A stretch of DNA of 64,000 nt, taken from Halobaculum sp. MBLA0147. GTDB lineage: Archaea; Halobacteriota; Halobacteria; Halobacteriales; Haloferacaceae. Below the pieces are notes generated by a model. The model did no database searches, had not been told where the DNA came from, and saw only the letters and a program-made list of their open reading frames with translations. The stretch covers positions 2,728,001-2,792,000 of the forward strand of contig NZ_JBGKAD010000001.1 in NCBI RefSeq assembly GCF_041361345.1. The letters are read 5' to 3'. The position numbers and the translations under genes were made by a program. Below are positions 15,907 through 52,760 of this stretch, in pieces (position 1 is the first letter of the stretch; the number at the start of each line of letters is the position of its first letter).

Positions 15907-16035
15907 CCCGTGGAACGAGCCCGCGAGCGCCGCGGGCGGGCGAGTGACCTGCAGCGAGTTCTCGAACGCTTCGTGGTACGAGTGGTCCCTTCAGTTCGCG
16001 GCCGTCGGTCTCTGCTCGTGCCGAACCACTGGTGA

Positions 16036-16458
16036 TCAGCTGTACTCGTCTCCAACTATCGACCCACTGAACAGGCTTCCTAGGAGGAACAAGAACGAGG
16101 TCCGGACTGCGTACCGTGCGGGGAGCGTCTCCCAGACAGTCGTCACAGCGGTGTACATCACGAACAGGCCCGGAACGCCGATCGCCACCAGGAAGACGAC
16201 GGAGCCCAGTGCGACGACGGGGTTGGCGATTCCAATCACGATCAGAAAGATGAGGAGACGGAGCGCGATGAGCCCGACGGCGAAGAGTGTGACACCGAAC
16301 GCGATCTCGATAGTGTTCATCGACGGCTGAGGTACCCAGTCGACCCCCGTGCTCGCCACCCCCACTGCGAGAACGATGTTTGCGAGGAAGGCTACAATCA
16401 CAGAAAACCACTTGATCGAACTCCGTGCTGTATCGGCCTTTGTCGCCGAGTTTTGCAT
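16036..16458 (-). CDS. Four-helix membrane protein, duplicated copy A
   Basis: A 140-residue protein with four hydrophobic stretches: about 17-38 (FSVIVAFLANIVLAVGVAS), 49-64, 68-85 and 86-105. WETLPARYAVRTSFLFLLGS follows as a conserved amphipathic C-terminal part. It is roughly 65-70 percent identical by eye to the gene 883 bases downstream. The best conserved parts are PQPSMNT, TVWETLPA.YAVRTSFLFLLGSLFSG and VAFLAN. No family recognised. Upstream sequence is AT-rich (gcaaaaactcctttc), giving a plausible promoter. Confidence 0.75.
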   Translation of the reverse strand: MQNSATKADTARSSIKWFSVIVAFLANIVLAVGVASTGVDWVPQPSMNTIEIAFGVTLFAVGLIALRLLIFLIVIGIANPVVALGSVVFLVAIGVPGLFVMYTAVTTVWETLPARYAVRTSFLFLLGSLFSGSIVGDEYS

Positions 16459-16918
16459 GGTGATCGGAGCGTAGAATCAGAAGCAAAAACTCCTTTCGAA
16501 TTGTGAAATCTGTCACTGTCTCGCCAAGTAATGTAACACAGCCCAGAATCATCTCCAGGGACACGAACTAAGCGCTCGACTCTGGACAGTCGTCCAGACA
16601 GGCGTGGACGAATCGCCGCCGACCCCAGTGCGTGACGTGTAGAGACTACCCTCGGCCGCAGTACGCCGACTCACGCGCCAGGGTCGGACGGAAGGTGTGT
16701 CTCGTCGCCCGGTGCCGTGGCCCTCGGAGTGGGACACGAAACACGAGCGGAACGAGAACTACGGACGACGACAGCCAACGCGCAGGCTCGCGAGCCCGTG
16801 GAACGAGCCCGCGAGCGCCACAATCGGGTGGGTGAGCGGCAGCGAGTTCTCGGACGTGTGGGGTCCGAGTCGCTGATCACTGTCTTCTATCTCTCTATTC
16901 GTCCAGAACCGTTGGTGG

Positions 16919-17341
16919 TCAGGTGTTCCCGTCCCCTGCCAGTGTCCCACTGAACAGGCTTCCCAGCAGGAACAGGAACGACGTCCGGACGGCGTACTGT
17001 GCTGGGAGTGTCTCCCAGACGGTCGACGCGGCGGTGTACAACACGAACAGACTCGGAACTACGACGACCCCGAACACGGCTGTCAAGGCCAGTCCGGCCA
17101 CTGGATTGGCCGTTCCGACCACGAACAGGAGAACGAGGAGGCGGAGTACGAACAGTCCCAGGGCGAAGAGTAGGACGCCGAACGCGAGCTCGACCGTGTT
17201 CATCGACGGCTGCGGCACCAAGTCGACCACCGTGCTCGCCACCCCGACTGCGAGCACGAGGTTCGCGAGGAATGCCACGATGAGGGAGAGGCTCTTCAAC
17301 ATATCCCGTACGACATCGCCCTCCGTCGTCGACTTCGACAT
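16919..17341 (-). CDS. Four-helix membrane protein, duplicated copy B
   Basis: A 140-residue paralogue of the preceding gene, with the same length and the same four-helix plan. It starts MSKSTTEGDVVRDMLKSLS where copy A has MQNSATKADTARSSIKWFS, so the N-terminal 15 residues diverge while the helices and the C-terminal WETLPAQYAVRTSFLFLLGS are kept. Two intact copies without frameshifts suggest both are under selection or the duplication is not old. The upstream gap contains ttaaatttcttttgaaat about 30 bases before the start, a strong candidate promoter. Confidence 0.75.
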   Translation of the reverse strand: MSKSTTEGDVVRDMLKSLSLIVAFLANLVLAVGVASTVVDLVPQPSMNTVELAFGVLLFALGLFVLRLLVLLFVVGTANPVAGLALTAVFGVVVVPSLFVLYTAASTVWETLPAQYAVRTSFLFLLGSLFSGTLAGDGNT

Positions 17342-17600
17342 GGCGTCTGGTAACTTGATACAGTCATTAAATTTCTTTTGAAATACACAAAGCGGCCGTC
17401 TTGTCGTCTAGTAATTCGTCGACAGAGTGGAATCTTCTCTGGAAACCCGGTTCCAAGTCGACAGAGGACGGTCGTCCAGACGGCCGCACGGACGGATTGC
17501 CGTCGAGCGTTGTGCGAGACGTGCGGAGACTCTCCCCGATCACAGTAGGTCGATCTTCGCTCCACGACTCCGACGGGGGGTCTGTCTCGCGGCTCAGTAC

Positions 17601-32216: not shown

Positions 32217-33389
32217 TCAGAAGAAGTCGTTGAGTTTCTCGAAGAACCCCTCGCTCACGTCGACCTCCTCGCCGCCGGCCTCGGCGAACGCCTGCAGCGC
32301 CTCCTTCTGTTCGTCGTTGAGGTTCTCCGGCGTGACGACGCGCACTTGGACGAACAGGTCGCCGTCGCGGCGGCCGCGGAGCTTCGGCATCCCCTTGCCG
32401 CGCAGGCGGAACGTCTCCCCGCTCTGGGTGCCCGCGGGCACGTCGAGTTCGACGGTGCCGCCGAGTGTATCCACGCGGACGGTGTCGCCGAAGACGGCCT
32501 GCGGGAACGAGATCGGCTCGGTGACGTGGAGGTCCGCGCCGTCGCGCTCGTAGCGGTCGGAGTCGGCGATCTCCACGTCGATCAGCAGGTCCCCGTCCGG
32601 CGCGCCGCGCTCGCCGGGTGCGCCCTCCCCGTCCATCCGGAGCGTCTGGCCGTCCTCGATCCCCGCCGGCACGTCGACGGTGAGCGTCGCCTCCTCGCGG
32701 GTGATCCCGGAGCCGTCACACACCGCACACGACTCCTCGGGGATCTCCCCCTCGCCCTCGCAGTCCGGACAGGTGGTCGTCTGTTGGACCCGTCCGAGCG
32801 GGGTCTGTTGGACCTGTCGCACCTGTCCACGGCCGTTACACTGCGGACAGGTCCGCACGTCCGTCCCACGCGGGTAGCCACGCCCGCCACACTCACCACA
32901 CCGCTCGGGGCGCGCGGCGGTGAACTCCTTCGTCGTCCCCTCGTAGGCCTCCTGGAGCGTGATCTCCATCCGCGTCCGGAGGTCCTTCCCGGCGCGCGAC
33001 CCACGGCCGCCACCACCGCCGAAGAACTCCTCGAAGATGTCGCCGATGCCGCCCATGCCGCCGCCACCGCCGGCGCCGCCGAACGGACCCCCGGCGCCGC
33101 CTGCACCGCCGAACGGCCCGCCGGCACCGCCCCCGCGGCCGTCCTCGAACCCGCCGCGTTTCTCTGCCTGCTCGAACTGGTCGTGGCCCATCCGGTCGTA
33201 CGCCTGTCGCTTCTCCTCGTCGGTGAGCACCTCCTTGGCCTTCTTGATCTTCTTGAACTTCTCCTCGGCGTCCGGCTCGTCGCTCACGTCCGGGTGGTAC
33301 TCCGTCGCCTTCTGTCTGTACGCCTGTTCGATCTCCTCCTCGCTGGCGTCTCTGGAGACCCCCAAGATATCGTAGAAGTCCTCGCTCAT
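32217..33389 (-). CDS. dnaJ: Chaperone DnaJ (Hsp40)
   Basis: A 390-residue type I J-protein. J domain residues 1-70 with HPD at 32-34. A Gly-rich linker (about 80-125) follows. The zinc-binding domain has four CxxCxGxG repeats (CGECGGRG, CPQCNGRG, CPDCEGEG, CAVCDGSG), and the two peptide-binding beta domains end in LNDFF. It stimulates DnaK ATPase and delivers unfolded clients. dnaK and grpE are not in the window, so the usual hsp70 cluster is split here. It converges on gyrA with 115 bases between stops. Its upstream region holds a double-hairpin repeat element; a likely TATA (attcaaatacc) lies about 28 bases before the ATG. Confidence 0.98.
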   Translation of the reverse strand: MSEDFYDILGVSRDASEEEIEQAYRQKATEYHPDVSDEPDAEEKFKKIKKAKEVLTDEEKRQAYDRMGHDQFEQAEKRGGFEDGRGGGAGGPFGGAGGAGGPFGGAGGGGGMGGIGDIFEEFFGGGGGRGSRAGKDLRTRMEITLQEAYEGTTKEFTAARPERCGECGGRGYPRGTDVRTCPQCNGRGQVRQVQQTPLGRVQQTTTCPDCEGEGEIPEESCAVCDGSGITREEATLTVDVPAGIEDGQTLRMDGEGAPGERGAPDGDLLIDVEIADSDRYERDGADLHVTEPISFPQAVFGDTVRVDTLGGTVELDVPAGTQSGETFRLRGKGMPKLRGRRDGDLFVQVRVVTPENLNDEQKEALQAFAEAGGEEVDVSEGFFEKLNDFF

Positions 33390-33448
33390 CGGTTGTCGTG
33401 TGGTCCGGTTGTCGGTCGCGGTATTTGAATCGCCCGGCCTACAGCCCG

Positions 33449-33550
33449 ACCTTTTTCACTCCTCGGGGTGGCCGGCGCGGGGCGCCGGCCACCCGAGGAA
33501 AAAAGCTCGATCAAAAAGGGCCGCGAGCGCGCCGTGCGGCGCGCTCGCGG
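33449..33550 (-). repeat. Double-hairpin element, copy 1 (5' of dnaJ)
   Basis: In the dnaJ direction the order is: a 14-bp perfect stem (33521-33550) with a 2-base loop; a spacer ccctttttgatcgagctttttt; a 17-bp stem with one bulged G (33461-33498); then gtgaaaaaggtcgg. The same order occurs before trkA at 51278-51385. The inner parts of the second stem differ between copies (gtggccggcgc here, gtggcgcgc there) yet pair in both. The start codon of dnaJ is 72 bases beyond the last stem. Confidence 0.9.
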
Positions 33551-33555
33551 TGGCT

Positions 33556-33890
33556 TGCGGTGCCGCGACCGCACCGCTACCGCCCCGCTCCGCTGCCGCT
33601 CTCCACCGCACCGCACCACACCGCACCGCCCGGCGACCGCCACCGTCCCACATCGCCCCGCTCCGTTGCCGCTCTCCACCGCACCACGACTGCCACGCCC
33701 CGCGACCGCACCGCACCGCTGCCGCTCTCCACCGTACCACACTGCCCCGCACCGCCCCACACCGCCCCACTCCGCTGTCGCCCCGCGACCGTCACCGCTT
33801 TACACCACTGCCGCTCCGCTCCGCGACCGCGGCTACACGACGACCCCCCCGAACCGCCCTGCACCGCCCCGCACCGACGGACTCCGACGC
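33556..33890. repeat. C/G-skewed low-complexity tract joined to copy 1
   Basis: About 335 bases built from short units such as ccgcaccgct, ccccgctccgctgccgctct and ccaccgcaccgcacc; on the dnaJ strand it is strongly G-rich. Long open frames through it are artefacts of composition (runs of Pro, Arg, His, Ala). No gene is supported. A matching tract adjoins the trkA copy. Confidence 0.85.
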
Positions 33891-33900
33891 CGCCGACTCG

Positions 33901-34644
33901 CTACGTCGTCTGTTCCCGTGTCACGTCGTGGGCTAGCGTCCCGACACCCTCGACGGTGACCTCGACGTGGTCCCCGTCCGACAGCTCCCCGACGCCCGCC
34001 GGCGTCCCGGTCGACACCACGTCGCCCGGCTCCAGCGTGAGGTACTGCGTGATCTCCGCGAGCAACTCCGGCACCGAGAAGACGAACTGGTCGCGTGACC
34101 CGTGCTGGACACGCTCGCCGTTCAGGCGCAACTCCACGGCCGCGTCGTCGGGAACGTGCTCGGGCTCGGCGACACACGGTCCCACGGGTGCCGACCCGTC
34201 GAACGCCTTCCCACGCACCCAGTTCGTCTCCCGGTCTTGATCCGTCCGGTTCGACACGTCGTCGAGACAGGTGAACCCCCGCACGTACGACATCGCCTCG
34301 TCCGGCGCCACGTTCCGCGCCGGCTCGTCGATCACGACCGCCAACTCCGCCTCGTGTTCGACGTGGTTGTCCGCGGGCAACGGCGTCGTCGCGTTCGGCG
34401 GCGCGACGGTGTTGGGTGGTTTCAGGAACAGCAACGGGCGGTCGGGGACGTCCGCGTCGCGCTCGTCGGCGTGTGCGACGTAGTTGCGCCCGACACACAC
34501 CACCTTCGACGGCTCGCAGGGTGCCAAGAGTGTCACGTCCTCGCGTGCGAGGTCGTACTCGCGGCCGCCGAACGCCACCGTGTCGCCGTGGTACGTTCCC
34601 CGCCGGACCGCACCGGCCGGGTCCGTGAAGCGTGCGTGTCTCAC
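33901..34644 (-). CDS. Fumarylacetoacetate hydrolase (FAH)-family protein
   Basis: A 247-residue protein; GTG 34644 begins RHARFTDPAGAVRRGTYHGD, the usual N-terminal domain, although the frame is open further upstream. CVGRNYVAHADE, HVEHEAELAVVI (metal-binding Glu pair), RTDQDRETNWVRGKAFDG and STGTPAGVG are all FAH/HpcE hallmarks. Family members hydrolyse or decarboxylate beta-dicarbonyl acids, such as acylpyruvates and oxaloacetate, or act as 2-hydroxyhepta-diene-dioate isomerases. The specific substrate cannot be assigned. Mostly cytosolic metabolic clean-up or aromatic degradation roles are known. It diverges from the RNase P subunit gene by 63 bases. Confidence 0.92.
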   Translation of the reverse strand: MRHARFTDPAGAVRRGTYHGDTVAFGGREYDLAREDVTLLAPCEPSKVVCVGRNYVAHADERDADVPDRPLLFLKPPNTVAPPNATTPLPADNHVEHEAELAVVIDEPARNVAPDEAMSYVRGFTCLDDVSNRTDQDRETNWVRGKAFDGSAPVGPCVAEPEHVPDDAAVELRLNGERVQHGSRDQFVFSVPELLAEITQYLTLEPGDVVSTGTPAGVGELSDGDHVEVTVEGVGTLAHDVTREQTT

Positions 34645-45702: not shown

Positions 45703-47709
45703 ATGACAGACGAAGGTGGCGACGACGCCACGACGCCCCCGGACGCAGACGACGCTGGGGCGGCGTCCACCGAGGAGACGCCCCCGGACACAGACGACGC
45801 TGGGGCGGCGTCCACCGAGGAGACGCCCCCGGACACAGACGACGCTGGGGCGGCGTCCACCGGTGGGGAGGGGACACCCCCGGACGTAGACGACGCGGAG
45901 ACGGAGCCGCGACTCGACACGGACGCACTCTACGACGTGGTCGAGACTGCCGGGCGACCGATCGTCACGGCGAGCGTCGTGGCCCGCCACACCGACCTGA
46001 CGCAGGCGGACGCGGCCGCGGCGCTGGACGAACTCGCCGACGCGGGCGACGCCGAGCGGGTCGACACCAGCGACGACCCGGTCGTCTACTACCCGCAGTC
46101 GTGGGGCGAACTCGCCGAGCGCGAGCGCCTCGTGGTGTTCCCCGACCGCCGGGAGATCGTCGCCGACCGCCCGACACAGTACACCCGCGCCGGGCTCGCA
46201 CAGTTCGCCCACCTCGTCGACTCCACGCGGACCGACCCCGGAACGCGTGGCTACCTCTACGAGGTCCGACCGGAGGACGTGTGGGCCGCACCGTACGACT
46301 CGCTGGAGGAACTGCTCGCACGCGTCCGCTCCGTCCTCCCGCGACGCGTGGGGAGCCTCGAGGAGTGGATCGGCGAGCAGTGGAAGCGCGCCAACCAGTT
46401 CGTCCTCCGCACCCACGAGGACGGCTACGTCGTTCTGGAGGCGGCGCGCGAGGAACTGATGGGCAACGTCGCCCGACAGAAGCTCTCGGAGGAGCACCTC
46501 CGGGCACCGATCTCGGACACGGAGTCGTGGGTGAACGCCGACGCGGTCGGGGCTATCAAGCGCACGCTGTACGAGGCGGGCTACCCCGTCCGCGACGAGC
46601 GCGAACTGGACAGCGGCGACCCGCTGGACGTGACCCTGGAGACCGAGCTACGCGAGTACCAACGCGAGTGGGTCGACCGGTTCCTCGACAGACAGTCTGG
46701 GGTGTTGGTCGCGCCACCCGGCAGCGGGAAGACGGTCGCCGCGCTGGGCGTGCTCGCGGAGATCGGCGGCGAGACGCTGATCCTCGTCCCATCGCGGGAA
46801 CTGGCGGGCCAGTGGCGCGCGGAACTGCTCGCGCACACGGACTTAGACGAGGACCAAGTCGGGGAGTACCACGGCGGCACCAAGCAGATCCGCCCGGTGA
46901 CGATCGCCACCTACCAGATCGCGGGGATGGACCGCCACCGCTCGCTGTTCGACTCCCGCGAGTGGGGGCTGATCGTGTTCGACGAGGTCCACCACGTCCC
47001 GGCGGACGTGGCCCGCCGCACGACGGAGCTCCAGAGCCGGCACCGGCTCGGGACGACGGCCTCCGCGGTGCGGGAGGACGACCGCGAGGAGGAGATCTTC
47101 ACGCTCGTCGGCCCACCGCTGGGGACCGACTGGGGAGCGTTGTTCGACGCCGGCCACGTCGTCGAGCCGGAGGTGGAGATCCGGTACGTGCCGTGGCGCG
47201 ACGACGAGGCCGAGAACGAGTGGGCCGCCGCCGAGCGTCGCGCGAAGCGGCAACTCGCGGCGACGAACCCCGCGAAGGTGGACGCCGTCCGCCGCCTCCG
47301 CGAGGAGCACCCGGACGCACGGACGCTGGTGTTCGTCGACTACCTCGATCAGGGCGAGTCGTTGTCGGCGTCGCTGGGCGTGCCGTTCGTCTCCGGAGAG
47401 ACGCGTCACCACGAGCGCGAGCGCCTGTTCGAGGCGTTCCGTCAGGGCGAGCGGGACACCCTGATCGTCTCGCGGATCGCCGACGAGGGGTTGGACCTCC
47501 CGAACGCCGAGTTGGCGATCGTCGCCTCCGGGCTCGGCGGGAGTCGGCGGCAGGGCACTCAGCGCGCCGGGCGGACGATGCGCCCCTCCGGCAGCGCCGT
47601 GGTGTACGTGCTGGCGACGCGTGGCACCAGCGAGGAGGAGTTCGCCCGCCGCCGGATGCAACACCTCTCCGGGAAGGGTGTCCGCGTCCGCGAGCGGACG
47701 GTGGAGTGA
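45703..47709 (+). CDS. XPB/Rad25-like superfamily 2 helicase
   Basis: A 668-residue protein from ATG 45703. Residues 1-55 are three 15-residue repeats (TPPDTDDAGAASTEE type) encoded by a 45-base DNA repeat. Then come a winged-helix-like part (about 65-110) and a damage-recognition-like region. The helicase core has Walker A APPGSGKT, the DEAH-box variant DEVHH (motif II), TTAS (motif III) and QRAGRTMRP (motif VI). The shape resembles archaeal XPB, which works in nucleotide excision repair, often with the nuclease Bax1. The neighbouring 275-residue gene does not look like Bax1. Repair use is inferred. Confidence 0.9.
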   Translation: MTDEGGDDATTPPDADDAGAASTEETPPDTDDAGAASTEETPPDTDDAGAASTGGEGTPPDVDDAETEPRLDTDALYDVVETAGRPIVTASVVARHTDLTQADAAAALDELADAGDAERVDTSDDPVVYYPQSWGELAERERLVVFPDRREIVADRPTQYTRAGLAQFAHLVDSTRTDPGTRGYLYEVRPEDVWAAPYDSLEELLARVRSVLPRRVGSLEEWIGEQWKRANQFVLRTHEDGYVVLEAAREELMGNVARQKLSEEHLRAPISDTESWVNADAVGAIKRTLYEAGYPVRDERELDSGDPLDVTLETELREYQREWVDRFLDRQSGVLVAPPGSGKTVAALGVLAEIGGETLILVPSRELAGQWRAELLAHTDLDEDQVGEYHGGTKQIRPVTIATYQIAGMDRHRSLFDSREWGLIVFDEVHHVPADVARRTTELQSRHRLGTTASAVREDDREEEIFTLVGPPLGTDWGALFDAGHVVEPEVEIRYVPWRDDEAENEWAAAERRAKRQLAATNPAKVDAVRRLREEHPDARTLVFVDYLDQGESLSASLGVPFVSGETRHHERERLFEAFRQGERDTLIVSRIADEGLDLPNAELAIVASGLGGSRRQGTQRAGRTMRPSGSAVVYVLATRGTSEEEFARRRMQHLSGKGVRVRERTVE

Positions 47710-49760: not shown

Positions 49761-50951
49761 TCACTCCGCCGCCTTCTCGGCGCGGCCTCGCGCCAGGAGG
49801 AACACGCCGACGAACTCGCGGACTGAACGTGTTCCCCCCTCGATTGTAAAGCTGTCGTCGGACGGACCGTTCCCGACCGGCACCGGGCCGGGCTCGGTCA
49901 CCTCCACCATGATCCGCTGGTCGCGGAACTGCTCCGCGACGGCGTCTCGCGTCGGTTCGAAGTCGTCGACCACCTCGCGGTCGAGCCGCCGGACGACGAA
50001 CCCGGTGCCGCCGTGGAGACTCCCCGGGAGTCGGATGAGACGGCGTACGTCCGTCGTCACCGGTTCGTCGATGGGTGCGGTCTCCTCGGCGAGCACGCGG
50101 TCGGCCAGCGCGCGGATCAGCGTGCTCGCGCCCGGCCCCAACTCCACGTTGCCGGAGCGGACACCCTCCGGGTTGTTCTGGAGGACGCCGTAGATGGTCG
50201 TCGCGGTCTTCTCGCCGACGCCGTCGAGTTCCTGGAGGCGGGCGAGTGCCGTCTCCTCGTCGGCGTTGAGCAACGCGTCGGTGTACGCGAGCAGTCGTTC
50301 GTGGACGCGTCGGCCCCACCCACCCTCGGCGCGGAGCGTCTTCTGGAGGGTGCCGCGGTCGTTGGGTCGTTTCTCGATCAGGCCGTCGCGGTCGAGGTCG
50401 ATCCCGCGGACGTAGTCGACCACCTCGCGGCGCGCCTCGGAGTCGAGTCCGCGGACGGACGGATCGCGGACGTGGACGTGGTAGCCGCGACCGCCGGAGA
50501 ATACGATCTCCAGCTCGTCGTCCCCGAAGCCGAAGTCCGTGGTCAACACGTCGAGGAGGTCGAGGAGTGCGTCCTTGCACTCGCGGAGCATCTCCGTGTA
50601 GGAGTCCGTCTCGGGGTCGACGCCGGGGAGGTGGTCGGCGTCGAGGTCGAAGACGAGGTCGGCGGAGCGCCAGCCTTTCTGGGCCATCGTGCGGTTCGAG
50701 GGGTCGTCGTAGCGCGCCGCCGAGAAGTAGACGTGTCGGGGGGACTCGCGGGCGAGGAACTCGCCCAGTTGCTCGGGGCCGCCGGCCACGTCGAGTAGCG
50801 ACTGGTGGCGGACCATCGTGGTGCCCTCGCCCTCGGTGAAGGGGATGTGCCCCCACTCGCGGTCGGCGGCGGCGGGCGGGACGGGCGTGTCGCTCCGGCG
50901 GTAGTAGTCACCGAAGCGTCCCGACAGGTACTCTCTCGTGCGGCGCTCCAT
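49761..50951 (-). CDS. priS: DNA primase small (catalytic) subunit
   Basis: A 396-residue archaeo-eukaryotic primase. ATG 50951 begins ERRTREYLSGRFGDYYRRSD; the longer open frame upstream runs into repeat DNA. Catalytic acids Asp102 and Asp104 lie in VFDLDADHL, and FSGGRGYHVHVRD near 151-163 is the third conserved block. LIRLPGSLHGGTGFVVRRLD is the C-terminal signature. It makes RNA/DNA primers with PriL. It is first in a priS-GINS operon. The gap to the divergent trkA contains the second double-hairpin element. Confidence 0.97.
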   Translation of the reverse strand: MERRTREYLSGRFGDYYRRSDTPVPPAAADREWGHIPFTEGEGTTMVRHQSLLDVAGGPEQLGEFLARESPRHVYFSAARYDDPSNRTMAQKGWRSADLVFDLDADHLPGVDPETDSYTEMLRECKDALLDLLDVLTTDFGFGDDELEIVFSGGRGYHVHVRDPSVRGLDSEARREVVDYVRGIDLDRDGLIEKRPNDRGTLQKTLRAEGGWGRRVHERLLAYTDALLNADEETALARLQELDGVGEKTATTIYGVLQNNPEGVRSGNVELGPGASTLIRALADRVLAEETAPIDEPVTTDVRRLIRLPGSLHGGTGFVVRRLDREVVDDFEPTRDAVAEQFRDQRIMVEVTEPGPVPVGNGPSDDSFTIEGGTRSVREFVGVFLLARGRAEKAAE

Positions 50952-51044: not shown

Positions 51045-51277
51045 AGCGATCCTGGGGCGGCCGCGGTGGCGGAGCGGCTGCGGAGCAGTGCGCGACGGGT
51101 GCGATGCGGGGCGGTGGCGGAGCAGTTGTGGAGGCGAAGCGTAGCGGTGCGGGGTGGTCGCGGCGGCGGCGGAGCGGTGCGGTCGCGGCGGCGGAGCGGC
51201 GCGGTGGCGGAGCGGAGCGGTGCGGTGCGGTGGCGGAGCGGTGCGGGGCGGTGGCGGTCGCGGCACCAGCACACCGA
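51045..51277. repeat. G-rich low-complexity tract joined to copy 2
   Basis: About 230 bases of units like gcggagcggtgcgg and gtggcggagcgg. On the trkA strand it is G-rich with many GG runs. It ends in gtcgcggcacc, which also borders the dnaJ copy. Open frames here are compositional artefacts. Confidence 0.85.
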
Positions 51278-51385
51278 CCGCGAGCGCGCCGCACGGCGCG
51301 CTCGCGGCCCTTTTTGGTCGAGCTTTTTTCCTCGGGTGGCGCGCGCAGCGCGCCACCCCGAGGAGCGAAAAAGGTCGGTCGTAAG
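51278..51385 (+). repeat. Double-hairpin element, copy 2 (5' of trkA)
   Basis: Order: 14-bp perfect stem (51278-51307) with loop ca; spacer ccctttttggtcgagctttttt; 15-bp stem (51330-51363) with loop gca and one bulge; then gcgaaaaaggtcgg. It has the same orientation relative to trkA as copy 1 has to dnaJ, with the start codon 54 bases beyond the last stem. Stem 1 loop tg/ca and the inner stem-2 bases differ from copy 1 while pairing is kept. Confidence 0.9.
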
Positions 51386-51416: not shown

Positions 51417-52760
51417 ATGCACGTCATCGTGGTGGGCGCGGGACAGGTGGGGTCGAGTATCGCCGCCAGTCTCGCAGACACACACGACGTGGTGGTGATC
51501 GACCGCGACGGCGAGCGGGTGGACGCGTTGACGTACGACATCGACGTGTTGGCCATCGAGGGCGACGGGGCCGACCTCGAGACGCTGCGAGAGGCGAACG
51601 TCGGTGAGGCGGACCTGTTGATCGCCAGCACGGACGACGACGAGACGAACGTGGTGGTGTGTGGGACGGCGAAGGTGGAGTCGGAGGCGTTCACCATCGC
51701 CCGCGTCAAGCGGCCGCAGTACCTCGCGACGTGGGAACACGCCGTCGACGCCGGCAACGAGGCGTTCGGGGTCGACTTCATGGTGTGTTCGGACCTGCTG
51801 GCGGCACAGACGATCGTCGAAGTGATGGGGGTACCGACGGCGGAGGACGTGAAGTCGTTCGGCGACGGGCTGTGTCGGATGGCGGAGTTCAAGGTGCCCG
51901 CCGGCAGCGCCGTCGCCGAGCAGACGGTGAGCGAGGCGGACCGCTTCCCCGGACTGACCTTCGCGGCGATCATCCGTGGCGAGGAGGTGATCGTCCCGCG
52001 CGGGGAGACGCTGATCCAGCCCGAGGACGACCTCGTGGTGATCGGGCGGCCGGAGGAGGTGGAGGCGTTCGGGGCGGACCTGGCACCCGACCAGACGAAC
52101 CCCGAGGAGATCGTGATCTTCGGCGGGAGCGAGATCGGCTACCAGACGGCGCGGCTGTTCTGCGAGCAGGGGTTGTGTCCACGACTCGTCGAGCAGGACG
52201 AGACACGGGCGCGGTGGCTCGCCGAGCAACTGCCGGAGGCGACGGTGATGCACCACGACGCGACCGACCAGGAGTTCCTCGAACGCGAGAATATCGGTAG
52301 CGCGGACGTGGTCGTCGCGGCCTTAGACACGGACCAGGGGAACCTGCTGGCGACGTTGCTCGCCAAGCGACTCGGTGCAGACCGAGCCGCGGCAGTCGTC
52401 GACAACGGACAGTTCACGGACCTGTTCGAGACGGTCGGCGTCGACGTGGCGATCAGCCCGCGGCGGGTGACGGCCGAGGAGATCACGCGGTTCACGCGGA
52501 CGAACTACGCGGAGACGGTGTCGATCATCGAGGACGACCGCGCGGAGATCCTGGAGTTGGAGGTGAGCGCCGACAGTGCCGTCGTCGGCGAGCGCGTCCG
52601 CGACCTCGCGGTCGAACTCCCGCAGAGTGTCGTCATCGGGTCGATCACGCGCGACGGGGAGTTGTTGATCCCGCGTGGTGACACCGAGATCCGCGCCGGC
52701 GACCACCTCGTCGTGTTCGTCGAGGCCGACGACGTGGACGCCGTGACCGAGGCGTTGTGA
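51417..52760 (+). CDS. trkA: Trk potassium uptake protein TrkA
   Basis: A 447-residue protein with two RCK units. The first starts HVIVVGAGQVGSSIAASLAD (NAD-binding GxGxxG) and ends in an RCK-C lobe (FPGLTFAAIIRGEEVIVPRG). The second starts IVIFGGSEIGYQTARLFCEQ and ends GSITRDGELLIPRGDTEIRA. It is the cytosolic nucleotide-sensing ring that gates TrkH. Potassium import is central to the salt-in strategy of haloarchaea. trkH follows after a 269-base gap filled with imperfect repeats. The upstream double-hairpin element may affect expression. Confidence 0.97.
   Translation: MHVIVVGAGQVGSSIAASLADTHDVVVIDRDGERVDALTYDIDVLAIEGDGADLETLREANVGEADLLIASTDDDETNVVVCGTAKVESEAFTIARVKRPQYLATWEHAVDAGNEAFGVDFMVCSDLLAAQTIVEVMGVPTAEDVKSFGDGLCRMAEFKVPAGSAVAEQTVSEADRFPGLTFAAIIRGEEVIVPRGETLIQPEDDLVVIGRPEEVEAFGADLAPDQTNPEEIVIFGGSEIGYQTARLFCEQGLCPRLVEQDETRARWLAEQLPEATVMHHDATDQEFLERENIGSADVVVAALDTDQGNLLATLLAKRLGADRAAAVVDNGQFTDLFETVGVDVAISPRRVTAEEITRFTRTNYAETVSIIEDDRAEILELEVSADSAVVGERVRDLAVELPQSVVIGSITRDGELLIPRGDTEIRAGDHLVVFVEADDVDAVTEAL

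Follow-up and report, generated by a model that had tools for sequence, protein, structure and literature searches.

Archaeal transcription termination is still being worked out. A run of five T with C after it (T5C) brought about termination of 95% of transcripts in a Haloferax volcanii reporter (PMC7237163), and aCPSF1, a termination factor of archaea, shows its strongest binding to RNAs carrying two or more U4 tracts (PMC8716108). Among haloarchaeal repeats, the PATEs of Haloquadratum walsbyi show strain-specific insertions and are related to IS605-type transposons, and the SMRs insert mostly into other mobile elements (PMC3119063). Here, we describe an element family that represents a defined, conserved, and repeated cis-element at gene ends. 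Two copies occur in the window, the whole 64-kb stretch of Halobaculum DNA that was analyzed, one between an FAA hydrolase gene and dnaJ (copy 1) and the other between the divergent priS and trkA genes (copy 2). No Rfam family matched the element at gathering or loose thresholds, plasmid and phage collections held no match, and no description of it was found in the literature outside subscription papers. The genes and the promoter-like sequence around the two copies are as follows.

32217 to 33389, minus strand: dnaJ (Pfam DnaJ, DnaJ_C)
33422 to 33431, minus strand: dnaJ TATA-like box (gattcaaata), in the gap separating copy 1 from the gene; conserved in G001 and G002
33901 to 34644, minus strand: FAA hydrolase gene (Pfam PF01557, gene call), on the tract side of copy 1 and reading toward the element
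49761 to 50951, minus strand: priS, DNA primase small subunit (Pfam PF01896), on the tract side of copy 2 and divergent from trkA
51417 to 52760, plus strand: trkA (Pfam TrkA_N, TrkA_C)

Anatomy of the Two Window Copies

The conserved block shared by the two loci is 103 to 107 bp long (33445-33551 on the plus strand and 51277-51379 on the minus strand), each copy being flanked by a G/C-skewed tract, and its inverted arms (33474-33551 and 51277-51354) are 94% complementary across 78 nt. In the orientation that usually follows a gene, the order is ACCGACCTTTTTCACTCCTCGGGG-P2 hairpin-CCCGAGGAAAAAAGCTCGATCAAAAAGGGCC-P3 hairpin-GGT, then a degenerate C-rich tract. Read from gene end to tract, copy 1 lies on the plus strand and points away from dnaJ.

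33445 to 33551, plus strand: copy 1, 107-bp core (covariance model R1, 112 bits; R2, 93.8 bits)
33447 to 33509, plus strand: copy 1, outer stem P1 (CGACCTTTTT / AAAAAGCTCG) and long hairpin P2 (fold; P1 cross-genome covariation)
33452 to 33457, plus strand: copy 1, TTTTTC, candidate U5C terminator (sequence, T-run list)
33499 to 33517, minus strand: copy 1, two T-runs, candidate double U-tract for transcription from the tract side, read on the plus strand as A6 (33499-33504) and A5 (33513-33517), 8 nt apart (T-run list)
33520 to 33551, plus strand: copy 1, 14-bp hairpin P3 with a 4-nt loop (fold)
33552 to 33870, plus strand: degenerate C-rich (CCGCNC) tract adjoining copy 1 (CCGC density peak)
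51045 to 51268, minus strand: degenerate CCGC tract (GCGG on the plus strand) adjoining copy 2 (GCGG density peak)
51277 to 51379, minus strand: copy 2, 103-bp core, between trkA and priS (covariance model R1, 121.6 bits)
51277 to 51308, minus strand: copy 2, 14-bp hairpin P3 (sequence, fold)
51311 to 51329, plus strand: copy 2, two T-runs, T5 (51311-51315) and T6 (51324-51329), 8 nt apart
51319 to 51377, minus strand: copy 2, P1/P2 hairpin (sequence, fold)
51368 to 51372, minus strand: copy 2, T5 followed by C (A5 on the plus strand) (T-run list)

The initial annotation had recognized the twofold occurrence of a block with a G-rich border, a 14-bp hairpin, a T-run spacer, a longer hairpin, and gaaaaaggtcgg, all of which are present, and the fold comparison bore out its observation that the longer stem has other inner bases in each copy with pairing kept. 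Of the interval it quoted, the conserved part is the core, the remainder being CCGC/GCGG tract of degenerate sequence. From element to start codon the distance, given there as 54-72 bases, measures 55 nt at dnaJ and 37 nt at trkA, and the orientation it adopted is opposite to the one that places most copies behind a gene.

The two window tracts (33552-33870 and 51045-51268) are degenerate, and each copy's is different. The C-rich tract lies on the same side in 26 of the 28 copies found in the window's own genome and is strong in that Halobaculum genome, one same-genus species, and Halobium (G009), and weaker elsewhere. Long-period tandem duplications were seen within the flanking tract of some copies (L012, L013, L016, and L026). 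The window also contains diverged direct repeats about 883 bp apart (16009-16460 and 16892-17343, 75-80% identical) and tandem 45-bp repeats (45732-45917) within the open frame at 45703-47709.

Copy Number and Distribution

In the genome from which the window comes (6 contigs, 4.29 Mb), the element is present in 28 copies, in both orientations. BLAST of one copy against this genome returned 27 near-complete places (E 1e-48 to 1e-30), and a pattern search based on P1/P2 gave 27 matches, its reversed control none; hence, the match between the two window blocks is far beyond chance. All 28 copies are located on the main contig C1 (3.00 Mb; P about 5e-5 for chance by length), with none on the remaining 1.29 Mb, and all lie outside genes except for one ambiguous gene call (L022).

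A covariance model built from these copies found matches in 24 of 60 relatives. A second model, built from diverse copies, gave 5 to 50 matches per genome in 12 chosen genomes, both strands being counted, and in a phylum-wide sample of 120 genomes it matched 12 of the 19 haloarchaea and none of about 100 non-haloarchaeal genomes. Named carriers are Halogeometricum, Halobium, Halegenticoccus, Halobellus, and Halolamina, in which, together with a MAG, a looser DNA pattern identified 15 places; a strict DNA pattern found nothing across the named genomes. Judged from these searches, the element appears to be Halobacteriales-specific, dispersed, and ~85-130 bp long. Searching the genome and its relatives with a covariance model was the check that the initial annotation had put forward; with 28 copies in the genome itself, the element is not specific to dnaJ or trkA.

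Fold and Covariation

The outer stem P1 (CGACCTTTTT/AAAAANNTCG) covaries between genomes. Its two sides (nCGACCTTTTT with AAAAANNTCGn) are 86% paired in 40 sequences from many genera, a value biased toward pairing by the inclusion of P1 in the model with which the sequences were gathered; specific exchanges of GA/TC to CA/TG and AA/TT are clear despite this bias. RNAalifold returned no structure for the gappy cross-genome alignment, and P1 and P3 were therefore tested by hand. Jointly, they showed 34 two-sided-change cells; shuffles gave 8.4 +/- 2.4 and slid controls no more than 18. Among the 26 distinct copies of the window's genome, hardly any change affects the outer stem, the 14 pairs of P3, or the P2 foot; three inner P2 pairs change jointly (11 copies have GC/CG swaps), and the loop of P3 is highly variable. 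Because such paired swaps within a genome could also stem from correction between the palindrome arms, they are alone no proof of selection on the fold. Conservation of the fold, noted earlier from paired changes between the two window copies, is supported by the cross-genome covariation and by the paired swaps among the copies of the window's genome.

The strand read from the tract side is predicted to be more stable in 108 of 117 foreign copies; by eye, its mismatches form tandem CGAG/CGAG steps, those of the other strand UC/CU. Terminal inverted repeats across the element are absent, P1 joining the left end to the middle and not to the right end.

Position at Gene and RNA Ends

Gene context was scrutinized in loci of 2.7-3.5 kb using a home-made codon-usage gene caller. 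In the window's genome, the T-run end falls 0-3 nt past a stop codon in 15 of the 28 copies and 15-18 nt past it in two more, where the first 13 nt are partly repeated in the space between. One copy directly follows tRNA-Leu, one (L022) is ambiguous, and nine, including those at dnaJ and trkA, stand 30-55 nt upstream of a start codon. Of 80 elements in seven other genomes, 55 had the left end at -4 to +3 nt relative to a stop codon, about 13 were at tRNA 3' ends, where a duplicated tRNA end preceded several of them, one was 6 nt past the 3' end of the SRP RNA, and eight were 38-60 nt upstream of start codons, most of them adjoining BRE/TATA-like sequence. Elements ahead of start codons thereby stay clear of the promoter. 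The tract side showed no preference for stop codons or RNA ends. What the ends of coding sequences, tRNAs, and the SRP RNA have in common is the need to end a transcript, which favors a terminator reading.

Additional sequences were observed next to some elements. At the korB and polD copies (L014 and L023), a further degenerate CGACCTTCTTCGG stands immediately ahead of the element, suggestive of a duplication of its first 13 nt. At seven loci (L143, L144, L147, L152, L104, L138, and L166), a block of 80-130 nt separates a tRNA gene from the element and consists, in order, of the tRNA 3' end in inverted form (GATTCGAATCAGGGAACG-like), a loop, and the tRNA 3' end repeated in direct orientation; this block may be a second insertion targeting tRNA ends. 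Hairpin-rich sequence directly after korB at L221 (G007) and L228 (G027) resembles a longer or decayed form of the element.

Relationships Among Copies

Copies evolve in concert within genomes. The nearest relative lies in the same genome for 28 of 28 copies from the window's genome and for most copies in six of the seven other genomes, and where different genera carry an element at one shared gene (korB, polD large subunit, enoyl-CoA hydratase family, phoU-like, and cdc48-like), each element is closer to its genome-mates than to its counterparts. Shared host-gene pairs numbered about 18, compared with 1-2 expected by chance on our estimate. Between the same-genus genomes G000 and G001, only about two sites are held in common, and at korB the element is present in G000 and G002 and absent in G001; since presence at a given gene is patchy even inside one genus, the element is dispensable. 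Along the chromosome the copies form clumps (p 0.011, with 5 gaps of less than 6 kb), and neighboring copies share right-flank sequence (identity versus genomic distance, p 0.009), with no such effect of distance on core identity (p 0.51). The resemblance to genome-mates, the few sites shared within the genus, the clumping, and the shared right flanks together suggest that copies spread or are homogenized within genomes, with preferred host genes. Loci around the two Y1_Tnp genes of the genome contained no element and no R2 match, and the flanks of copies that were inspected held no common direct repeats or target duplication.

Candidate Function and Alternative Explanations

We consider that the element is probably a bidirectional transcription terminator and insulator at transcription-unit boundaries. 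T-runs are scarce in the window, where TTTT occurs within 150 nt of the stop in only 1 of 56 called genes and 6 of the 10 T5/A5 runs belong to the two elements. A T-run of 4 or more was found in 142 of 145 elements, C follows it in 98 of the 143 having a T-run, and two T-runs are spaced by 8 nt in 129 of 139 two-run elements, a spacing favored by the search model. This scarcity and the T-runs carried on both strands, together with T5C termination in Haloferax and the preference of aCPSF1 for two or more U4 tracts, are why the bidirectional terminator was chosen, and the recurrence of host genes across genera (korB, polD large subunit, ECH-like, phoU-like, and cdc48-like), the covariation of P1, and the share of sites between convergent genes (46 of about 106 fully classified) also speak for it. 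A polymerase leaving the adjacent gene would run into TTTTTC no more than about 10 nt past the stop codon or RNA 3' end, and one entering from the tract side would encounter the strong hairpin P3, two U-tracts 8 nt apart, and a second hairpin. We infer that aCPSF1/FttA may take part. Beside a promoter, as at dnaJ and trkA, the element would block transcription from the neighboring gene or antisense transcription, and copies would be duplicated or homogenized inside each genome. Against this function, divergent genes flank about 12% of copies, with no obvious need for termination at such sites, and the T-run comes ahead of the hairpins on the gene-proximal strand, which would make the fold unneeded for U5C termination there. 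The patchy presence within a genus and a sequence homogeneity within a genome that is tighter than a terminator requires also count against it. An attenuator-like terminator pair had been among the candidates of the initial annotation; the T-runs and hairpins on both strands and the gene-end sites agree with a terminator-like pair, with termination itself presumed from these features. Natural present/absent pairs, such as korB in one genus, make the contributions of U-tract, hairpin, and aCPSF1/FttA directly testable.

The main rival is a mobile repeat with incidental terminator content. It would be primarily a non-autonomous element (REP/MITE/PATE-like) moved by a transposase in trans, and the T-runs and gene-end position would be by-products of where it prefers to insert and of selection against landing inside genes. 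Such an origin would suit the 28 near-identical copies with nearest relatives in their own genome, as in most other genomes, the positions mostly unshared between same-genus genomes, the clumping and shared right flanks, and the patchy korB site, and a structured mobile repeat, also listed at the outset, gains from the dispersal and within-genome homogeneity but not from any Y1 link or target duplication. However, insertion alone leaves the 0-3 nt spacing at stops, tRNA, and SRP RNA ends unexplained, no common target sequence was seen, copies are missing from plasmid and phage collections and from the sequence outside C1, and the same host genes recur in different families, making a primarily mobile element unlikely. 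A mobile terminator would satisfy both readings. We tentatively raise the possibility of an order-wide, self-propagating terminator that copies itself precisely to transcription-unit boundaries, is kept for insulation, and undergoes concerted evolution; if so, the strong terminators of a genome would evolve in concert as a mobile repeat. Either way, the question posed is how a ~100-bp element reaches within 0-3 nt of stops, tRNA ends, and promoters, staying uniform per genome.

Roles in RNA or DNA structure were also weighed. A structured 3' UTR element, protecting mRNA ends or regulating the stability or translation of the upstream gene's mRNA, would account for covarying stems placed immediately past the stop codon, and E. 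coli REPs within 15 nt of a stop are reported to affect translation (PMC12306157). It is nevertheless improbable, given that the element also occurs at tRNA and SRP RNA ends and upstream of promoters, that the hairpins may be untranscribed from the upstream gene with T5C coming first, and that it is the tract-side strand that is predicted to fold more stably. The confinement to contig C1, the perfect palindromes in this genome, and the G-rich flanking tract might instead reflect a DNA-level site, cruciform or protein-binding, for chromosome organization, replication, or transformation; with irregular, clumped spacing, both orientations in use, positions dictated by gene ends, and a chromosome bias that housekeeping host genes may alone explain, this is very unlikely. 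A 5' regulatory element for stress and ion genes, one of the candidates of the initial annotation, would fit the place of the two window copies upstream of dnaJ and trkA. The neighbors of most other copies are unrelated, and most copies sit 0-3 nt past stops. The TATA-like box between element and dnaJ is kept in same-genus G001 and G002, both without the element there; the element lies upstream of this box and so should be outside the dnaJ transcript. It is likewise absent upstream of trkA in same-genus G001 and G003 (the G002 trkA locus is too short to judge), and in three other genera the element stands at the dnaJ 3' end instead. A 5' regulatory role is thus strongly disfavored and scarcely credible.

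Comparison with Known Systems

Several described systems share features with the element. PATEs and SMRs of H. walsbyi are likewise haloarchaeal and non-coding with near-terminal palindromes, SMRs being about 80-110 bp; unlike them, the element sits at the ends of housekeeping genes. REP/BIME sequences associated with RAYT are short, dispersed, paired palindromes, intergenic, near stops, and homogeneous per genome, whereas the present family has ~28 copies of a longer unit with a fixed double-hairpin order, T/A runs, and the 0-3 nt boundary. No RAYT link was found, as neither of the two Y1 transposase genes of the genome has the element in the loci around it, and a MITE was rejected for lack of element-spanning terminal inverted repeats and of common direct repeats in the flanks inspected.

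Among terminators, the element resembles the archaeal U-tract type in its T-run of at least four beside stop codons on the coding strand, and the H. volcanii T5C terminators in having five T and then C just past genes. The T5C of H. volcanii is an isolated signal (PMC7237163), while that of the element lies within a conserved ~100-bp folded unit with T-runs on the opposite strand. Bidirectional intrinsic terminators between convergent genes also combine a hairpin with T-runs on both strands, and 46 of ~106 fully classified element sites are between convergent genes; in contrast to these terminators, the element forms one repeated family across the order, found also beside promoters and between divergent genes.
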